Source: Pseudomonas fulva 12-X
GTDB lineage: Bacteria; Pseudomonadota; Gammaproteobacteria; Pseudomonadales; Pseudomonadaceae
Assembly (NCBI RefSeq): GCF_000213805.1
Contig: NC_015556.1
Span: 1,860,001 to 1,924,000 of the forward strand
Length of the DNA stretch: 64,000 bases
Direction: 5' to 3'
The notes below the pieces were generated by a model. It worked only from the letters and a program-made list of their open reading frames with translations, did not search any database and was not told the origin of the DNA. The translations under genes and the position numbers were made by a program. Positions within the stretch are counted from its first letter, which is position 1; each line of letters opens with the position of its first letter. Positions 11,396 to 50,005 of this stretch are shown piece by piece.

Positions 11396-11459
11396 GAGAC
11401 TGTTCAGGATCTTCTTGAACGCTTCACTGGGCCGCTTCAAGGAATGCAGCCGCTGACAC

Positions 11460-11485
11460 GGGCAGCAATCGGCCAGGAGCTGCCC
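11460..11485. repeat. Short palindrome with GGCC core
   Basis: The arms GGGCAGC (11460-11466) and GCTGCCC (11479-11485) enclose a TCGGCCA core. It resembles the palindromes at 11888-11907 and 14517-14542, and lies between rbsD and the island genes. Confidence 0.5.
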
Positions 11486-11573
11486 TTCATGGGCGATTTA
11501 TCTGTGAGCGCTTGTGGATGAAAAAGAATGACAGAGCCACTACTCTCAGACGTACCTCGCCTCAGGTCATGCC

Positions 11574-11843
11574 ATGAACCTTAACCCGATTGAGTCCTGC
11601 CCACGCTGTGGCTCCTTCCAGCATGTCAGATCAAAAAGAATTCTGATTGGAGCAGCAAGCCCGAAGAAACGTTTCGATGGGGAAGAAAAAGTAGGCTACC
11701 AACGCTTGGATCAGCTAGCGGTTGATGAATGCAAGCCCGCCCTCCTGAATGCGACACCGCTCGAGCAGCTAGTAGATGGTTTTTACTGCGATCATTGCGG
11801 GGTGGGGTTTGTAACAAGCGAACTTTTACGAGGTTTAGAATGA
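11574..11843 (+). CDS. Zinc-ribbon-like small protein of unknown function
   Basis: The protein has 89 residues. Two CxxC pairs are visible, ESCPRCGSFQHV at residues ~8-18 and FYCDHCGVGFV near 70-80, enough for one four-Cys zinc ribbon separated by a charged linker. No known family is recognised. Base composition is lower in GC than the ribose operon, and the gene stands alone just upstream of the GHKL-nuclease gene, which faces it convergently. Confidence 0.6.
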   Translation: MNLNPIESCPRCGSFQHVRSKRILIGAASPKKRFDGEEKVGYQRLDQLAVDECKPALLNATPLEQLVDGFYCDHCGVGFVTSELLRGLE

Positions 11844-11887
11844 TCTTGAGCGACCGCATTTGGCCGATTGCAGCTAGTAACCACGGG

Positions 11888-11907
11888 CCGCTATCGGCCA
11901 AAAGCGG
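11888..11907. repeat. Short palindrome with GGCC core
   Basis: CCGCT (11888-11892) and AGCGG (11903-11907) flank a TCGGCCA core. The same core and similar arms occur at 14517-14542 on the other side of the island. Confidence 0.45.
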
Positions 11908-12059
11908 ACAGTCTTAAGTGCCGGTTCAGGTGTTGAATAACGTCTGTATTGGTCACAAGGAAGGGGTGATGGCATGCGTGTGCTCTCAGCGTTGAGAGGA
12001 TGCATCAAAAGCTCCTCTCGCCGTCACCTGAATACACTATGAACTTCCACATGTTCAGT

Positions 12060-14009
12060 TTAGGCGTTTACCGCCTCGCCTAGATCGAGATCTCCCTGCT
12101 CCTGCACTGACAGCACCTTAGCGAGAAGCGCGTCGGTTTGGAGGTTGTCGTAGCGATTCTCCAAAGTCTTACGCAATCGCATCAGTCTGAGATTGGCGGT
12201 GCTTACCAAAGCTCCGTATGTTGTAGCTCTGACTTGGCCATAACGGCGATTCTCGTCGCCGACTGTTTTGTCCGTCCCCACACCAGGCGCAATGGATTGA
12301 CCCACTACCCAAGCGGTCACATACGGCGCGCCGTGGACAAAGCCTGAGTTCGCAATGTCTTGAACGTATTCGTCAGCCTGATTCACCTCCTTACGATTGA
12401 TTTTGAAACCGCCCTTTTTGAGCTCAATCAGCAATATATTTTGCATCTGAGCGACAGTTGGATCTTGAGTTTGAAACCCCTCAATGCCGACCAGTTGGAC
12501 GGTGCTTTGATCTGGAAGAACAACGACATCAGGCCGCTTCTTCTCATTGATAAATGAAGCGCCTGTGTTACCCCAAAGTTGCTTAGCTACGCTCCGTAGA
12601 GTCATGTTCGAGCAGTATTCCATCGACTCGAATTCTGGGCCGAAGAGCCATCGAGATCTCAGGATCAACGGATGAAGGGTATGGAGCTCATCGGTATTGG
12701 GGTCATCAGCGAGCCTTGCAATGACCTCAATGACGCTGAGCCTGTCATCAATTTCGTCCAGGACACGCAGAGCGTCTTTGACCGACCAATCGGCCAGCAG
12801 GGAATCAAGTCCCTCCACGTCTGTTGCTGATAACTTGGCAAGTTTTTGAAGGAGCGACACACCGCTTTTGGATTTCTCCAGATTGATCACGGCTTTGACC
12901 GCCGTCGCCAGGAAATCAGGGGAGATCAAGGGGTGGGCTTGAGCAACCGCCTTCGTGAATTCGGTCACCTCAAGTTGCGCACCTTGCCCAAGGGTTTTAA
13001 GTTCAGAGCGATTCTGAACAAGAGCGTCTTCCGATGTTGCTTCAACCACCTCTGCGGCGAGCTCATCGGCGACCTGAGTGATGTGTAGTGAGGCGGCCTT
13101 GAAAAGCTCTTCCACCGCTGGCGTCGCCTTAAACCCTGTCCAATCCGCATGGACATGGTCATCAAAGCCATGGGTGTCTACGATAACTTTGTACCGCTTA
13201 GCAAATCGAGTGCGACCATCGAAGTTCGCTACTTGGCCAATCGCCCAAGATGGATTTCCTACAAGGCGGTGGTCTACCCAAAATGCTACACCTTGATGGA
13301 TAGAAGAGTGGTTCTGCTGTGTTGAGTCAATGACAATCACCCGCGCAGATCGACCCTCACTCAAAGAAATGGTCTGTTCCTTCGCGTATTTTTCAAGCTT
13401 GGCAAGCGTCAGCGGGGTGCCGTTTACGCGAATCTGGAAGCTGGGGTCATGGATAAAGCGTGCCGCTAGGACAGTCGAGATTTCCGCTGCATCAGGAAGC
13501 TTGCGAACAACTGTCACGCGGAGCCTGGTACCAGAGCCCTCCTGCTTACCGAACTCCTCTGATCGAACGACAAACGGGCTTGGGCCAGATTCAGTGCCTA
13601 CAACGAATTTGCTTAGTGTTCCGTCGCGCCAGGTTTCGACAAGATACTCATCACCGAAGCAAAGAAGACCATGGCGCCCTACACCATTGCGGCCATAGGC
13701 TTTCCGAAGCTTTGCACTCCTGCCTTTTGGGAATTCTACTTTCCAGCTTTGATGCTTCAGCCTGTTGTATCGGAGCATCATCCAGCGATTGCTGAACTGC
13801 TCCGGGGTCATGCCATGGCCGTCGTCAAGAATAGTGAGCGTTCCGCCGAGCTCGGAGGGGAGGAATAGCTCGACCTTGCTCGCCCCCGCGTCCCAAGCAT
13901 TTGCGACCAATTCGGTAAGAGCGACTTGAGGTACATGAGCAACCGGCCCAAGTTCCCGTAAGAGGTAGTCCTCCTCGAACAGCGATAGATGACGCGTTTG
14001 TTCGGGCAT
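12060..14009 (-). CDS. GHKL (HSP90-like) ATPase with C-terminal PD-(D/E)XK-like nuclease region; candidate defence protein
   Basis: The protein has 649 residues; the ATG at 14009 is preceded by a strong AAGGAGG ribosome site. The N-terminal GHKL ATPase is complete: N-box E33-x3-N37-x2-D40, DDGHGM (62-67) and the glycine-rich lid GRNGVGRHG (106-114). The middle contains an S5-like segment and a helical region. The C-terminal 160 residues show RPDVVVLP (Asp494), LLIELKKGG (Glu529, Lys531) and Q544-x3-Y548, the D...ExK...Q...Y pattern of PD-(D/E)XK nucleases such as Shedu-type DUF4263. Established work links prokaryotic MORC/MutL-like GHKL proteins with restriction-type nucleases. An anti-phage role here is inference. 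GC content is lower than in its neighbours. Confidence 0.7.
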   Translation of the reverse strand: MPEQTRHLSLFEEDYLLRELGPVAHVPQVALTELVANAWDAGASKVELFLPSELGGTLTILDDGHGMTPEQFSNRWMMLRYNRLKHQSWKVEFPKGRSAKLRKAYGRNGVGRHGLLCFGDEYLVETWRDGTLSKFVVGTESGPSPFVVRSEEFGKQEGSGTRLRVTVVRKLPDAAEISTVLAARFIHDPSFQIRVNGTPLTLAKLEKYAKEQTISLSEGRSARVIVIDSTQQNHSSIHQGVAFWVDHRLVGNPSWAIGQVANFDGRTRFAKRYKVIVDTHGFDDHVHADWTGFKATPAVEELFKAASLHITQVADELAAEVVEATSEDALVQNRSELKTLGQGAQLEVTEFTKAVAQAHPLISPDFLATAVKAVINLEKSKSGVSLLQKLAKLSATDVEGLDSLLADWSVKDALRVLDEIDDRLSVIEVIARLADDPNTDELHTLHPLILRSRWLFGPEFESMEYCSNMTLRSVAKQLWGNTGASFINEKKRPDVVVLPDQSTVQLVGIEGFQTQDPTVAQMQNILLIELKKGGFKINRKEVNQADEYVQDIANSGFVHGAPYVTAWVVGQSIAPGVGTDKTVGDENRRYGQVRATTYGALVSTANLRLMRLRKTLENRYDNLQTDALLAKVLSVQEQGDLDLGEAVNA

Positions 14010-14184
14010 GGTTCCCTCCTTGGGATGGTGCTTATCGTTGAGCGTTTGCGAGTGCTTGCGGACAATCCTACATCAGTGAATATCAATGCCGTCGTTTGAT
14101 CTCACCGATTAAGCTACGCGAGACGCTTCAGCAGCTGAGCTAGGGTTTCGGGGTGTCTGATTCTCCAACTGACAACGCTTGGCG

Positions 14185-14511
14185 ATGCACCAATTGCGCA
14201 AAGACAACCACTACGTTCCCAAGCTGTACCTGAAGCAGTGGTCGCATGAAGCACTGATTCCTACCTACCGCCTGTTGGTTCCAAGTGAGAAAGCCCCCCT
14301 GTGGAAGAGGCAATCCTTGAAGGGAACCGCTTACCACCAGCACCTCTATACCTACCTTGTTGGGCAAGAGGAGACAGATGAGTTTGAGCGCTGGCTCGGC
14401 AGTGAGTTTGAGAGCCCTGCGGAAGAGACGATCCGGCGAGTTGTTCGCGAGGAGCGATTGGAACCAGAGCATTGGAGGAGGTTGGTGCGTTTCGCAGGAG
14501 CTAAGTCCTGA
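14185..14511 (+). pseudogene. DUF4238 family protein, C-terminally truncated
   Basis: The 108-residue reading frame from ATG 14185 starts MHQLRKDNHYVPKLYLKQW, the characteristic HYVP...L..W N-terminus of DUF4238 proteins, which are usually around 300 residues. Homology-like sequence runs to WRRLVRFAGA, then meets a stop within a few codons and directly a palindrome (14517-14542). This suggests that the 3' two thirds were lost by deletion or insertion. It is divergent from the GHKL-nuclease gene. DUF4238 has no established biochemical function. It could still be translated as a short protein. Confidence 0.6.
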
Positions 14512-14516
14512 GCGAT

Positions 14517-14542
14517 CGTCCGCTTCTGGCCGAAAGCGGACG
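14517..14542. repeat. Short palindrome at the truncated end of the DUF4238 gene
   Basis: The arms CGTCCGCTT (14517-14525) and AAAGCGGACG (14533-14542) surround a CTGGCCG core. It begins six bases after the premature stop of the DUF4238 fragment and resembles the palindromes at 11460 and 11888. Confidence 0.5.
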
Positions 14543-14687
14543 GACGGTGAACGGAGTATTTATGGGAAAGGCCGGGAGGCGATCCGCAGTCTCGATTTTT
14601 TGCCAGGCTAGGCGTAAGAGCCCGGGCTTAAAGCCCCTCCCACGATCATGAACGGTGCTACCGCCATTGCTGTTATCGACCTCTGCC

Positions 14688-15341
14688 TCAACTCCAGCTC
14701 AGGATCGGCCAGCCCTCACGCTCGGCATGCTCGCGCAGAACCGGGTCGGGGTTTACTGCGTGGGGTTTGTCGACGCGCTGCAGCAGCGGCAGGTCGTTGC
14801 GTGAGTCGGAGTAGAAATAGGCGCCGTCCAGCGTTTCGCCGTGTTCTTCCAGCCAGGCGTGCAGGCGGGTGACCTTGCCTTCACGGTAAGTGAGCACGCC
14901 TCTGGTCTTGCCGCTGTAATGGCCGTGTTCCTGGTGCAGGTCGATGGCCAGCACTTCGTCGACCTTGAGGCGTTCGGCGATGGCGCTGACCAGGAAGTGC
15001 GCCGAGGCGGAGATGATCAGGATGCGGTCGCCGGCCTCGCGGTGGGTGGCCAGGCAGCGGGTGGCGTCGCTGAAGAAGATTGGCTCGATCACGTCCTCCA
15101 CGAACGGCTCGACCACGAAGGCGACTTCTTCCGGCGTGCGGCCTACCAGCGGCGACAGGCTGAAGCTCATGTAGTCTTCCATGGCCAGCTTGCCTTCGGC
15201 ATACAGCGCCATCAGTTGGTGATCCTTGGCGATGAAGCTCTCGCCGTCGACCCAGCCCAGCGTGGCCATGTGCTCGCTCCATAGGCTGGCGCAGTCGCCG
15301 TTGATCAGGGTTTCGTCGAGATCGAAAATTGCCAAAGCCAT
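14688..15341 (-). CDS. HAD-superfamily IB phosphatase
   Basis: The protein has 217 residues from ATG 15341, overlapping the stop of the ABC ATPase gene; an in-frame TTG at 15344 is less likely. HAD motif I is IFDLDETLINGDCASLW (catalytic Asp pair near 7-9), motif II ILIISASAHFLV, and motif IV YSDSRNDLPLLQRV with the metal-binding Asp residues. The subclass resembles phosphoserine-phosphatase-like HAD-IB enzymes. As the last gene of an importer operon with a second phosphohydrolase, it probably dephosphorylates the imported compound or its product. The substrate is unknown. Confidence 0.85.
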   Translation of the reverse strand: MALAIFDLDETLINGDCASLWSEHMATLGWVDGESFIAKDHQLMALYAEGKLAMEDYMSFSLSPLVGRTPEEVAFVVEPFVEDVIEPIFFSDATRCLATHREAGDRILIISASAHFLVSAIAERLKVDEVLAIDLHQEHGHYSGKTRGVLTYREGKVTRLHAWLEEHGETLDGAYFYSDSRNDLPLLQRVDKPHAVNPDPVLREHAEREGWPILSWS

Positions 15342-46967: not shown

Positions 46968-47430
46968 TCAATACGGCCAATCTTCAAGGTGTTCTACATA
47001 ACCGTGTTTCAGTGGGTTGATGTGGATGTAATCGAAGTGGTGCCGGTAATCCCGCTCATTGCGGATCAGATGCTCCCAGTAACGTCGTTGCCATACAGTA
47101 ACGTCGTTGCCATATACCGCGCTCGCCGCGGCGCTGCTGGTTATCTGTGCGTGTCTCGGTGACGGGCAGGCGTTTGGAGAAAGCGAACTTGATGATCTTC
47201 CAGCGCAGGGCAAAGTCGGCATCGCCCGGCGGTAGCGTCCACAGGCAGTGCATGTGGTCGGGCAACACCACCCAGGCATCGATTTGAAAGGGATGACGGG
47301 CCCGCGTAGCTCGTACCGTCTCGCGTAGCAGATCAATCTCGCGGATCAGCAGATCGCTGCGGCGATCACGCAGGTTGACGGTGAAGAAGTAAGTAGCGCC
47401 GGCAATGCGAGCGCGGCGGTAGTTGGGCAT
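46968..47430 (-). pseudogene. RAYT-2, frameshifted by a 19-bp tandem duplication
   Basis: From ATG 47430 the reading frame starts MPNYRRARIAGATYFFTVNLRDRRSDLL and carries the HUH motif VLPDHMHCLW. It should continue GERGIWQRRYWEHLIRNERDYRHHFDYIHINPLKHGYVEHLEDWPY. The second part is intact but in another frame. The cause is a perfect duplication of CAGTAACGTCGTTGCCATA at 47077-47095 and 47096-47114: 19 bases shifts the frame by one. The nucleophile Tyr lies after the break, so transposase activity is lost unless the frame is restored. Confidence 0.82.
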
Positions 47431-47515
47431 GTTGGCTCGTCCTTGAGCTGTGGTGTTGCCTGAACCATGGTGGACAAGCTTCGCGTTGTCCACCCTACGC
47501 GGTGGGTATTGCGGC

Positions 47516-47545
47516 GTAGGGTGGATGACGCTCTTTTCATCCACC
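47516..47545. repeat. Dispersed GTAGGGTGGAT-type repeat, second copy
   Basis: The 30 bases are identical to 18788-18817. A partial inverted companion (CCACCCTACGC) lies at 47490-47500. Confidence 0.55.
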
Positions 47546-47569
47546 GCTTGCAGTTGTCCGGGCTACTCG

Positions 47570-48625
47570 CTATCTCTTTTTACGATCAATTTGTTGTGAA
47601 AAATCAAATCTTGCGATATGGGAGTCCGATATTTTTTCAGAGTCCATAAAAGCTACTTCGCTGAAGATGTCTAGGGCGTGGCTTCTATCTTTTAGGAAGT
47701 CATTCGCATCTAGATGTTTAAGAATAGAGTACTTTTCTATGTATCTCTTCATGCCCGAACCGTTACTTGTAAGGCAGTTCATGGTCAATATTTTTAGTTC
47801 ATCGCCAGTTAGTAAGGCCCTGAACATGCTGCTGTATCGGCGTCTGAAAAAATAAGCTTGTCTTTCTGGTGGGATTTTTGAGTTGGGATCGCTAGTGTGG
47901 TTGTATTCGTCAATGGTTTTTAATATTTGATATATGTTTCTGAAGTAGTGTGATAGTGATTCTGGATATTTTATTTCTAGCGTTGATGTGGCCGCTTTGG
48001 AAAGTTTTTCTATCTCTTTCTGCCTCAGTAGATAGTATTTTTGGCTTTTACTTGTTTTTTGTAGTTCGTCATCAGCTTTGTCTAATGACAAAAGTTCAAA
48101 TCTTATTTGTTCGAGTATCAGCTTTAGTATGTTTTCTCCTGTTCTATCGCTCAGGAATCTATCAATTAATCGGTTGTGGACTTCAAAGAGTCGAAATAAT
48201 GCTGACTCAAAATTTTGCCTTTCAAATATTTCTGTTTGTTTGAATTGGATGGTGTTGGAGAGTTTCGCCTCTTCTCGTGCGTCTTTTAGTTCGTTTCTTT
48301 GTATTTTTATTGTATGTAGTACAGCCATTAGCGCTAGAAAGCTGAGTAAGGGGTTTAGAATTCCTCCAATGTAGTCACCTATCTGTCCCCAGTATTGAAG
48401 TCTATCCTCGTTAGGTATTTTGAATGATACGAATGTGTCTGAGAGATTTAGGTAGAGTAGTGCAGCTACGGCCAGCGACAGTGTTGTGCTTGTTATTGTT
48501 ATAAAACTTCCAAACGTTATTTTTGAGAAGACTTCCTTGGTTATTATGGTCCTATATTTAACGGCTCTTAGTATTTTTTCTTTTAATAGTTTTTTCTTGA
48601 ATTCGTAGGCCAGCCGAATACTCAT
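47570..48625 (-). CDS. Putative phage abortive infection protein (AbiC-like, PF16872-type)
   Basis: The protein has 351 residues from ATG 48625. Two membrane helices near residues ~37-58 and ~85-105 (ITFGSFITITSTTLSLAVAALLYLNL; GGILNPLLSFLALMAVLHTIKI) precede a cytosolic domain: IFERQNFESALFRLFEVHNRLIDRF and later YPESLSHYFRNIYQILKTIDEYN...RRRYSSMFRALLTGDELKILTMNCL. These are the putAbiC-type landmarks. Codon and base use are strikingly AT-rich compared with neighbours, pointing to horizontal transfer. It begins just downstream of the nrdB terminator and ends near the RAYT-2/REP cluster. Phage defence is inference from family resemblance. Confidence 0.68.
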   Translation of the reverse strand: MSIRLAYEFKKKLLKEKILRAVKYRTIITKEVFSKITFGSFITITSTTLSLAVAALLYLNLSDTFVSFKIPNEDRLQYWGQIGDYIGGILNPLLSFLALMAVLHTIKIQRNELKDAREEAKLSNTIQFKQTEIFERQNFESALFRLFEVHNRLIDRFLSDRTGENILKLILEQIRFELLSLDKADDELQKTSKSQKYYLLRQKEIEKLSKAATSTLEIKYPESLSHYFRNIYQILKTIDEYNHTSDPNSKIPPERQAYFFRRRYSSMFRALLTGDELKILTMNCLTSNGSGMKRYIEKYSILKHLDANDFLKDRSHALDIFSEVAFMDSEKISDSHIARFDFSQQIDRKKR

Positions 48626-48652
48626 GGACGCTTCGTGCTCTAATTTATGTGC

Positions 48653-48677
48653 AAAAAAACCCCGCACTAGGCGGGGC
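48653..48677 (-). terminator. Rho-independent terminator of nrdB
   Basis: On the minus strand GCCCCGC-loop-GCGGGG is followed by seven T residues (hairpin 48660-48676). It lies between the nrdB stop and the AbiC-like start, separating the two genes transcriptionally. Confidence 0.85.
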
Positions 48678-48748
48678 TCTTTATCGAAGCTTCAACCCCA
48701 ACATCCATGGCAGGTGTTGGGTGAATCTAGCGTGATTTCAAACTGACA

Positions 48749-50005
48749 TCAATCCCAGCTCAACGCCCCGCCAGTCTGATACTCGATCACGCGGGTCTCG
48801 AAGAAGTTCTTCTCCTTCTTGAGGTCCATGATCTCGCTCATCCACGGGAACGGGTTGGTGGTGCCCGGGTATTCTTCCTTCAGGCCGATTTGGGTCAGGC
48901 GGCGGTTGGCGATGAATTTGAGGTAGTCCTCCATCATCGCGGCGTTCATGCCCAGTACGCCGCGCGGCATGGTGTCGCGTGCGTATTCGATTTCCAGCTG
49001 GGCGCCCTGCAGGATCATCTGGGTCGCTTCGTCCTTCATGGTGGCGTCCCACAGGTGCGGATTTTCGATCTTGATCTGGTTGATCATGTCGATGCCGAAG
49101 TTCAGGTGCATGGACTCGTCACGCAGGATGTACTGGAACTGCTCGGCGGTGCCGGTCATCTTGTTGCGGCGGCCCATGGAGAGGATCTGGGTGAAGCCGC
49201 AGTAGAAGAAGATGCCTTCGAGTACGCAGTAGTAGGCGATCAGGTTCTTGAGGAACTGGCGATCGGTTTCCGGGGTGCCGGTTTCGAACTTGGGGTCGGA
49301 GATCGAGCGGGTGTACTTCAGGCCCCAGGAGGCTTTCTTCGCGACGCTCGGGATCTCGTGGTACATGTTGAAGATTTCGCCTTCATCCATGCCCAGCGAT
49401 TCGATGCAGTACTGGTAGGCGTGGGTGTGGATCGCTTCCTCGAAGGCCTGGCGCAGGATGTACTGGCGGCACTCGGGGTTGGTGATCAGGCGGTACACGG
49501 CCAGTACCAAGTTGTTGGCGACCAGGCTGTCGGCGGTGGAGAAGAAGCCCAGGTTGCGCTTGACGATGCGGCGCTCGTCTTCGGTCAGGCCGTCGGCGGA
49601 CTTCCACAGGGCGATGTCCGCGGTCATGTTCACTTCCTGGGGCATCCAGTGGTTGGCGCAACCATCCAGATACTTCTGCCAGGCCCAGTCGTACTTGAAG
49701 GGTACGAGCTGGTTGAGGTCGGCGCGGGCGTTGATCATCTGCTTGTCGCCGACTTCCACGCGCGCGGAGCTGCCCTCGAGCTCGTCCAGGCCTTCCTGGA
49801 TGTCGAGGTCGTTGAGGGCTTGTTTGGCGCGGGCTACGGCAGCGGAGTCGCTGGCGTCGACGGCGCGGGCTTCGAGGGCGGCATTGCCGCCGACCTGGTT
49901 GAGTTTTTCCAGGCTCATGTCGGCGCCGGCCTGTGCGGCGTTGTTCTTGGCGGGGGAGGCGGCTTCGGCGCCGTCTTCCTTGTCGAATTCATCCCAGCTC
50001 AGCAT
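48749..50005 (-). CDS. nrdB: Ribonucleoside-diphosphate reductase class Ia subunit beta
   Basis: The protein has 418 residues. It holds the diiron-tyrosyl radical ligand set: the first Asp/Glu in [12 protein letters not shown]-x2-H in [13 protein letters not shown], and E-x2-H in [13 protein letters not shown]. The C-terminal tail ([11 protein letters not shown]) docks to NrdA. The Pseudomonas-type N-terminal extension of about 90 residues is present. It transfers the radical to NrdA for deoxyribonucleotide synthesis. It is 173 bases downstream of nrdA on the same strand. Confidence 0.95.

Follow-up and report, generated by a model that had tools for sequence, protein, structure and literature searches.

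A gene at a strain-variable site of Pseudomonas fulva 12-X encodes a GHKL ATPase joined to a putative Shedu-like nuclease and is a likely stand-alone antiviral factor

The gene described here lies within a 64,000-nucleotide stretch of DNA from Pseudomonas fulva 12-X (contig NC_015556.1, positions 1,860,001 to 1,924,000; hereafter the window) and encodes a protein in which a GHKL-type ATPase is followed by a putative PD-(D/E)XK nuclease domain (Table 1). Similarity between the window and its closest relative (genome G001) ends at position 11475 and restarts at 14514. That relative retains both flanks, namely the end of a ribose operon (rbsK/rbsD-like, as read by eye) and a HAD-type gene, and carries different open reading frames (ORFs) of 345 and 194 amino acids between them. 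In the window, the nuclease gene is accompanied in this cargo by a zinc-ribbon-like ORF and a truncated form of a DUF4238 gene. The guanine-cytosine (GC) content of the nuclease gene is 53.0%, compared with 62.6% for the window. The low GC content and the truncated neighbor noted in a first-pass annotation of this DNA were both confirmed. Its further statement that the gene lacks an operon partner holds for the window copy, which has no co-directional neighbor on either side, but fails for the family, in which many relatives have one. A co-directional gene lies no more than 100 bp upstream in 36 of 77 relatives and as close downstream in 22 of 77, counting only loci where a gene was called on the side in question; four of the downstream genes are leftover pieces of a broken copy. 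When the window is compared with eight other Pseudomonas loci (L032-L037, L048, and L167), DNA similarity reaches no further than 11-28 bases ahead of the start codon and breaks off 21-36 bases short of the gene end. Hence, the flanking DNA varies and the gene is retained.

All of the residues on which the first-pass annotation had based its reading (E33, N37, D40, DDGHGM, GRNGVGRHG, D494, E529, K531, Q544, and Y548) are present at the positions it gave. Conservation was assessed in a 70-row alignment comprising the window protein, 63 of 90 extracted loci, one further locus from the genome search, and five plasmid loci, chosen by eye to exclude broken copies and near-duplicates. The motif set from E33 to Y548 is not a product of chance because E33, N37, D40, D62, G64, G66, G106, G109, G111, D494, K531, Q544, and Y548 are invariant across these relatives, with position 529 held by glutamate or aspartate and position 67 by methionine in 48 of the 70 rows and by leucine in the remainder. 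The N-terminal part carries the hallmarks of the GHKL superfamily, including the invariant glutamate, asparagine, and aspartate, the DxGxG motif, and the lid glycines, with an S5 domain after the GHKL fold. Pfam detects HATPase_c_3 at residues 28-134 (E 3.7e-16), and PHROG 6203, a family of unknown function, matches in two stretches (E 4e-38, best at 27-207). In PHROG, NCBIfam, and PADLOC alike, the best-matching part of the protein is the ATPase end. An AlphaFold2 model built from the family alignment (predicted local distance difference test score, or pLDDT, of 82) forms a GHKL plus S5 module at residues 1-318 that resembles MORC, Hsp90, and MutL. An alignment-free fold of the same protein was not usable (pLDDT 35).

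The C-terminal region is probably related to the nuclease domains of Shedu proteins, which it resembles, although it scores below Pfam membership. Residues E441, D494, and K531 are invariant, and the alignment retains the D...(D/E)xK catalytic set that is typical of PD-(D/E)XK enzymes. The full-length structure prediction that had been proposed as a check places the C-terminal helices and strands in an order that fits the alpha-beta-beta-beta-alpha-beta core of this fold. A link to Shedu emerges from profile comparisons, in which family residues 432-622 served as the query and the E-values are pairwise, without database calibration. The family matches an intermediate profile, made from the C-termini of five hand-chosen GHKL proteins of other branches (L005, L011, L017, L022, and L028), at 98.8% (E 5.6e-17). 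These five in turn match nine SduA_C domains at 96.5% (E 9.4e-10). Only L028 among the intermediates was itself scanned, and it reaches 28.2 bits to SduA_C, for which the cut-off is 27. Controls gave 0.8% and 0.2% for two reversed profiles, 0.1-0.5% for five column shuffles against SduA_C, and 1.0% and 0.1% for the N-terminal and middle parts of the family against SduA_C. Pfam finds nothing significant in the C-terminus of the window protein, the best match being HSDR_N_2 at E 0.11; that family is matched by two of the 70 relatives at E 0.01 or below (best 0.0027).

Table 1. Features of the nuclease gene and its site in the window, with residue numbers of the encoded protein
Feature	Position	Strand	Basis or conservation (among 70 aligned relatives)
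Variable segment	11476..14513	.	not common to closest relative G001, which carries other cargo between the same flanks
GHKL-ATPase/PD-(D/E)XK-like nuclease gene	12060..14009	-	649 amino acids, ATG start, stop included in coordinates; intact
Shine-Dalgarno-like AAGGAGGG ahead of the ATG	14014..14021	-	sequence
GHKL ATP-binding domain, residues 1-201	13407..14009	-	
ATPase motif I, E33..N37..D40	13890..13913	-	each residue 70/70
ATPase motif II, DDGHGM, 62-67	13809..13826	-	D62, G64, G66 70/70
ATPase lid motif, GRNGVGRHG, 106-114	13668..13694	-	G106, G109, G111, R112 70/70
S5-like transducer domain, residues 202-296 (approximate boundary)	13122..13406	-	
Helical middle region, residues 297-434 (long helix 297-332 plus further helices)	12708..13121	-	model secondary structure
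Predicted Shedu-like PD-(D/E)XK nuclease domain, residues 435-620	12150..12707	-	conserved residues, helix/strand order, profile comparison
Putative catalytic D494 (RPD)	12528..12530	-	70/70
Putative catalytic E529-L-K531	12417..12425	-	K 70/70; position 529 E 67, D 3
Q544-x3-Y548	12366..12380	-	each 70/70

Several other features were observed at or near this site. The zinc-ribbon-like ORF (89 amino acids, 11574-11843, plus strand) is convergent with the nuclease gene and has a weak match to a YgiT-type finger (18.3 bits; cut-off 20.2). The DUF4238 gene (14179-14511, plus strand) is divergent from it, and its 110 amino acids cover profile positions 2-100 of 281, or about the first third. An inverted pair of near-identical imperfect palindromes (11886-11909, minus strand, and 14518-14541, plus strand) flanks the cargo. 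In the 4.92-Mb genome, the 20-nucleotide form with at most two mismatches occurs only at these two sites (one match for a backward control), as does the 22-nucleotide form with at most three mismatches (no match for the control). Degenerate copies also flank the different cargo ORF that G001 carries at this site (locus L166), and genome G011 contains an inverted pair whose two members are separated by about 2.2 kb. Possibly, the palindromes mark a cassette-exchange site. Upstream of the start, nine Pseudomonas copies have short words in common (window 14010-14125), and GGAGG precedes the ATG in the eight others as well. BLASTN similarity in this region extends over about 90 bases in L035 relative to L034 and L167, and over 11-28 bases in the window copy relative to others; some of its leader may move together with the gene. 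A promoter scan of 11400-14700 found none, where 1.8 were expected, and the four terminator-like sites there (3.0 expected) give no signal. Elsewhere in the window, the GC content at 47001-49000 falls to 0.50 and 0.43, perhaps marking another acquired segment.

Relatives of the gene are sporadic within groups. Among 194 genomes of relatives, 21 gave matches at E 0.001, most of them in the N-terminal part only, and full-length matches were found in just four: the P. fulva genome itself, G049 (83% identity), G164 (47%), and G064 (29%). Plasmid records yielded 25 matches, 13 of which span 80% or more of the query with identities of 22-33%, and IMG/VR yielded 14 relatives. A scan of GTDB species genomes gave 278 relatives confirmed by tblastn, the best 80 of which have 40-84% identity. 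Phage records gave a single match over 28% of the query. This protein, from a P2-like phage and annotated as ParaMORC3, belongs to another branch because its strong alignment is limited to residues 24-203; a weak piece aligns at 387-495 (E 0.028). Members also occur in Bacillota, Acidobacteriota, and other phyla, and a quick tree confines the 16 Bacteroidota rows and the five Bacillota rows each to one side of a branch. Among the 90 extracted loci (80 genomic and 10 viral), seven have a stop inside the matched stretch, in L039 only at its very end. The ratio of nonsynonymous to synonymous differences (pN/pS) of the window gene is 0.13-0.16 against six copies, a rough value because synonymous sites are saturated, and it indicates purifying selection. 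Together with the intact ORF and the conserved sites, this ratio led us to reject a pseudogene.

In a sister group, the nuclease gene is coupled to type I restriction-modification genes. It follows hsdS in six loci from Rhodocyclales (L038 and L040), Lysobacterales (L041), an unclassified proteobacterium (L045), Zoogloeaceae (L046), and Methylomonas (L047). In five of them, the first 8 nucleotides of the gene overlap the end of hsdS, and in L041 the two genes are separated by 36 nucleotides. All six loci have hsdM upstream, and five have hsdR there too (L046 ends at a contig edge), with a YhcG-type gene in between in three. Pfam named HsdS in three loci and HsdR and HsdM in one, and BLAST comparison with these identified the others. 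Between the operons, identity is 72-89% for HsdR, 74-87% for HsdM, and 32-60% for HsdS, and it is 66-85% for the GHKL proteins (five loci, excluding the broken L038). The low HsdS identity would be expected of operons in which the specificity subunit is exchanged and the other genes move as a unit. In L043 and L044, a GmrSD-type gene takes the same overlapping position, and a GmrSD-related pair inside a type I cluster is described as a working defense system in the available sections of one report (PMC11411939). Across a wider set of 97 loci, 14 have a match resembling HsdM, eight one resembling HsdR, and six one resembling HsdS, and therefore the type I linkage is a minority feature. It is tempting to speculate, although we regard the idea as doubtful, that the ATP-gated nuclease of the sister group is a portable second effector of type I restriction, translated together with HsdS, which recruits it either to provide back-up cleavage or to guard against anti-restriction proteins, and that the Pseudomonas copies have turned into independent immune nucleases able to sense the state of DNA by themselves.

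The P. fulva genome itself gave no N6_Mtase family match (the control search was positive in 13 of 14 genomes), no N6_N4_Mtase family match (control positive in 11 of the 14), and no match to one sister-group HsdM in a search that had no positive control. The failure to find HsdM or an N4/N6 methylase fits the proposal that the gene acts alone. One C5 methylase was found, about 324 kb from the nuclease gene. This C5-methylase-like gene (L199 6063-7853, at about 1.546 Mb of the genome) lies near a large recombinase-like gene and near genes read by eye as DHH/HD-type, and its region looks like a mobile element.

Comparison of homologous neighborhoods, also suggested at the outset, revealed restriction or defense genes adjoining many relatives. 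We scanned 135 of 154 adjacent genes, from 73 of 80 loci; seven loci were omitted as near-duplicates or cut contexts, as were proteins longer than 1100 amino acids and pieces of the nuclease gene itself. The most frequent Pfam families are ResIII, AAA_21, SMC_N, and Methylase_S, with five each. Helicases, N6_Mtase, MmeI domains, GmrSD_N, dynamin, a phospholipase-D-like domain, Fic, and an OLD-like TOPRIM are also present among the 25 of 120 families listed. A canonical Shedu gene lies directly downstream of a GHKL-nuclease relative in L034 (12034-13548) and in plasmid locus L029 (9967-11397).

Because the ATPase motifs are intact, the GHKL and S5 domains are modelled, the catalytic set is conserved, profiles lead to Shedu, purifying selection is indicated, the location varies, and restriction or defense genes adjoin many relatives, we consider it likely that the window gene encodes a stand-alone, sporadic, and variably located nuclease directed against phages or other foreign DNA, of the GHKL-Shedu (paraMORC3/VcSduA-like) kind. 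By analogy with GHKL biology and VcSduA, the protein would dimerize. Upon ATP binding, its GHKL/S5 modules might then close around DNA in the manner of MORC and MutL, and closure might free or position the C-terminal nuclease so that the bound DNA is cut, with ATP hydrolysis resetting the enzyme. Rather than by means of a cognate methylase, self would probably be told from non-self by the state of the DNA (its ends, topology, or modification, or intermediates of replication or recombination).

Several points weigh against this interpretation. The conserved residue set and the chain of profiles support the initial PD-(D/E)XK/Shedu claim in part, but a direct match of the family to SduA_C reaches only 52.3% (E 1.4e-4). 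None of the 70 members matches SduA_C (PF14082) in Pfam at E 0.01; the window protein has no match even at E 1 and thus falls short of the Pfam cut-off, and PADLOC SduA is matched by three of the 70. The nuclease fold is suggested by motif, element order, and profiles and not by structure search; fold searches with the full model returned no Shedu or PD-(D/E)XK chain among the best 50 per search, the lists being filled by N-terminal GHKL matches. The window copy sits between metabolic-looking genes with no recognizable defense island. The tree needs eight phylum-label changes, compared with a minimum of six, and therefore the family appears to largely follow phyla, with transfer between phyla unsupported. 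The 135 neighbors match 580 of 5027 PADLOC models at E 1e-8, compared with 64 models for a control set in which 135 of 137 ORFs were scanned from 20 stretches picked arbitrarily in genomes of the same genus, but this tally sets a same-genus control against neighbors from many phyla, counts models rather than proteins (many of the 580 are redundant HsdS models), and uses in both sets a simple longest-ORF rule that is error-prone in GC-rich DNA. Finally, the defense function is deduced from sequence, model, and context.

Other explanations deserve consideration. The protein might be an accessory subunit of a type I complex, with the stand-alone copies being orphans that either use another restriction-modification complex or are functionless. 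The arrangement behind hsdS in the sister group favors this view, but the methylase and HsdM searches of the P. fulva genome (the latter without a positive control) were negative, the stand-alone Pseudomonas copies are conserved, and other relatives adjoin GmrSD, MmeI-type, DUF499, dynamin-like, or other genes, which makes the explanation unlikely. More improbable is that the protein acts as a conventional, HgiDII/BbrUII-type restriction endonuclease and depends on a cognate methylase. Matches to NCBIfam restrict_BbrUII (NF050001; E 8.3e-25) and to PADLOC REase_II (E 3e-10) point in this direction, yet the former scores 87.4 bits against a cut-off of 550 in two stretches, the better at residues 31-218 and so within the ATPase end. 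Furthermore, no methylase gene adjoins the nuclease gene, and the sole C5 methylase found is remote and close to a recombinase-like gene. We therefore rejected a conventional type II enzyme. The least probable reading is that the protein resembles MutL in function and serves DNA repair or chromosome maintenance, to which the GHKL plus S5 fold common to MutL and MORC would be suited. Full-length relatives in so few of the 194 genomes, the variable site and flanks, and the restriction genes next to many relatives led us to reject it as well.

The preferred reading, an antiviral GHKL-Shedu nuclease, places the gene in a kind that is already known. GHKL-nuclease fusions named paraMORC3 were predicted in 2008, and VcSduA was shown to be antiviral in 2025, as the available sections of the two reports describe. 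The apparent novelty lies in a branch missed by the Pfam SduA_C model and in its hsdS-coupled form. In the open-licence PMC literature we found no paper on the exact family, and the available portions of that literature on GHKL-nuclease and Shedu proteins gave no mention of hsdS coupling. A broad and poorly annotated branch is thereby added to the GHKL-gated immune nucleases, and a MORC/MutL-like ATPase acting as a prokaryotic antiviral would be open to study in one polypeptide. The contrast between hsdS-coupled and stand-alone forms bears on whether the ATPase is a sensor or a mere clamp, and on why MORC-type ATPases are found within restriction systems as well as on their own.

The paraMORC3 proteins are described, in the available sections of Iyer et al. 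2008 (PMC2292703), as GHKL and S5 domains with a C-terminal domain that has E-D-ExK motifs and likely a restriction endonuclease fold. Some of these proteins, chiefly those of Proteobacteria and Bacteroidetes, are described as standing alone and might function independently of restriction-modification. The present protein has the same GHKL and S5 domains and the same C-terminal motif, and the two groups are alike in being sporadic, prevalent in these phyla, and in part stand-alone. As compared by description, the present branch differs in occurring also in Bacillota, Acidobacteriota, and others and in being coupled to hsdS in one group. The HgiDII/BbrUII-type enzymes have a related GHKL end, but the window protein is far below their cut-off and has no adjoining methylase partner. 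Canonical Shedu (SduA, PDB 8ti8, a relative of locus L030) is likewise a single gene with a nuclease domain related through the profile chain, whereas the SduA_C proteins that we fetched have, by eye, no GHKL ATPase; EcSduA is reported to sense DNA ends (PMC12904381, available sections). The closest parallel in architecture is VcSduA, a GHKL-DUF4263 protein of Vibrio cholerae. According to the available sections of PMC12137116 (2025), proteins of this type were formerly annotated as paraMORC3, and VcSduA protects against Drexlerviridae phages, with ATPase and nuclease mutants losing protection. It has an N-terminal GHKL ATPase, a clamp-like middle, and a C-terminal PD-(D/E)XK nuclease in a single gene, as is predicted here. 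In this comparison, made without directly comparing the sequences, VcSduA differs in having a recognizable DUF4263 (SduA_C) domain, which is detected in 0/70 members of the present family, and in the spacing from E27 to the catalytic K557, which is 530 residues if E27 is the motif I glutamate and 498 in the window protein.
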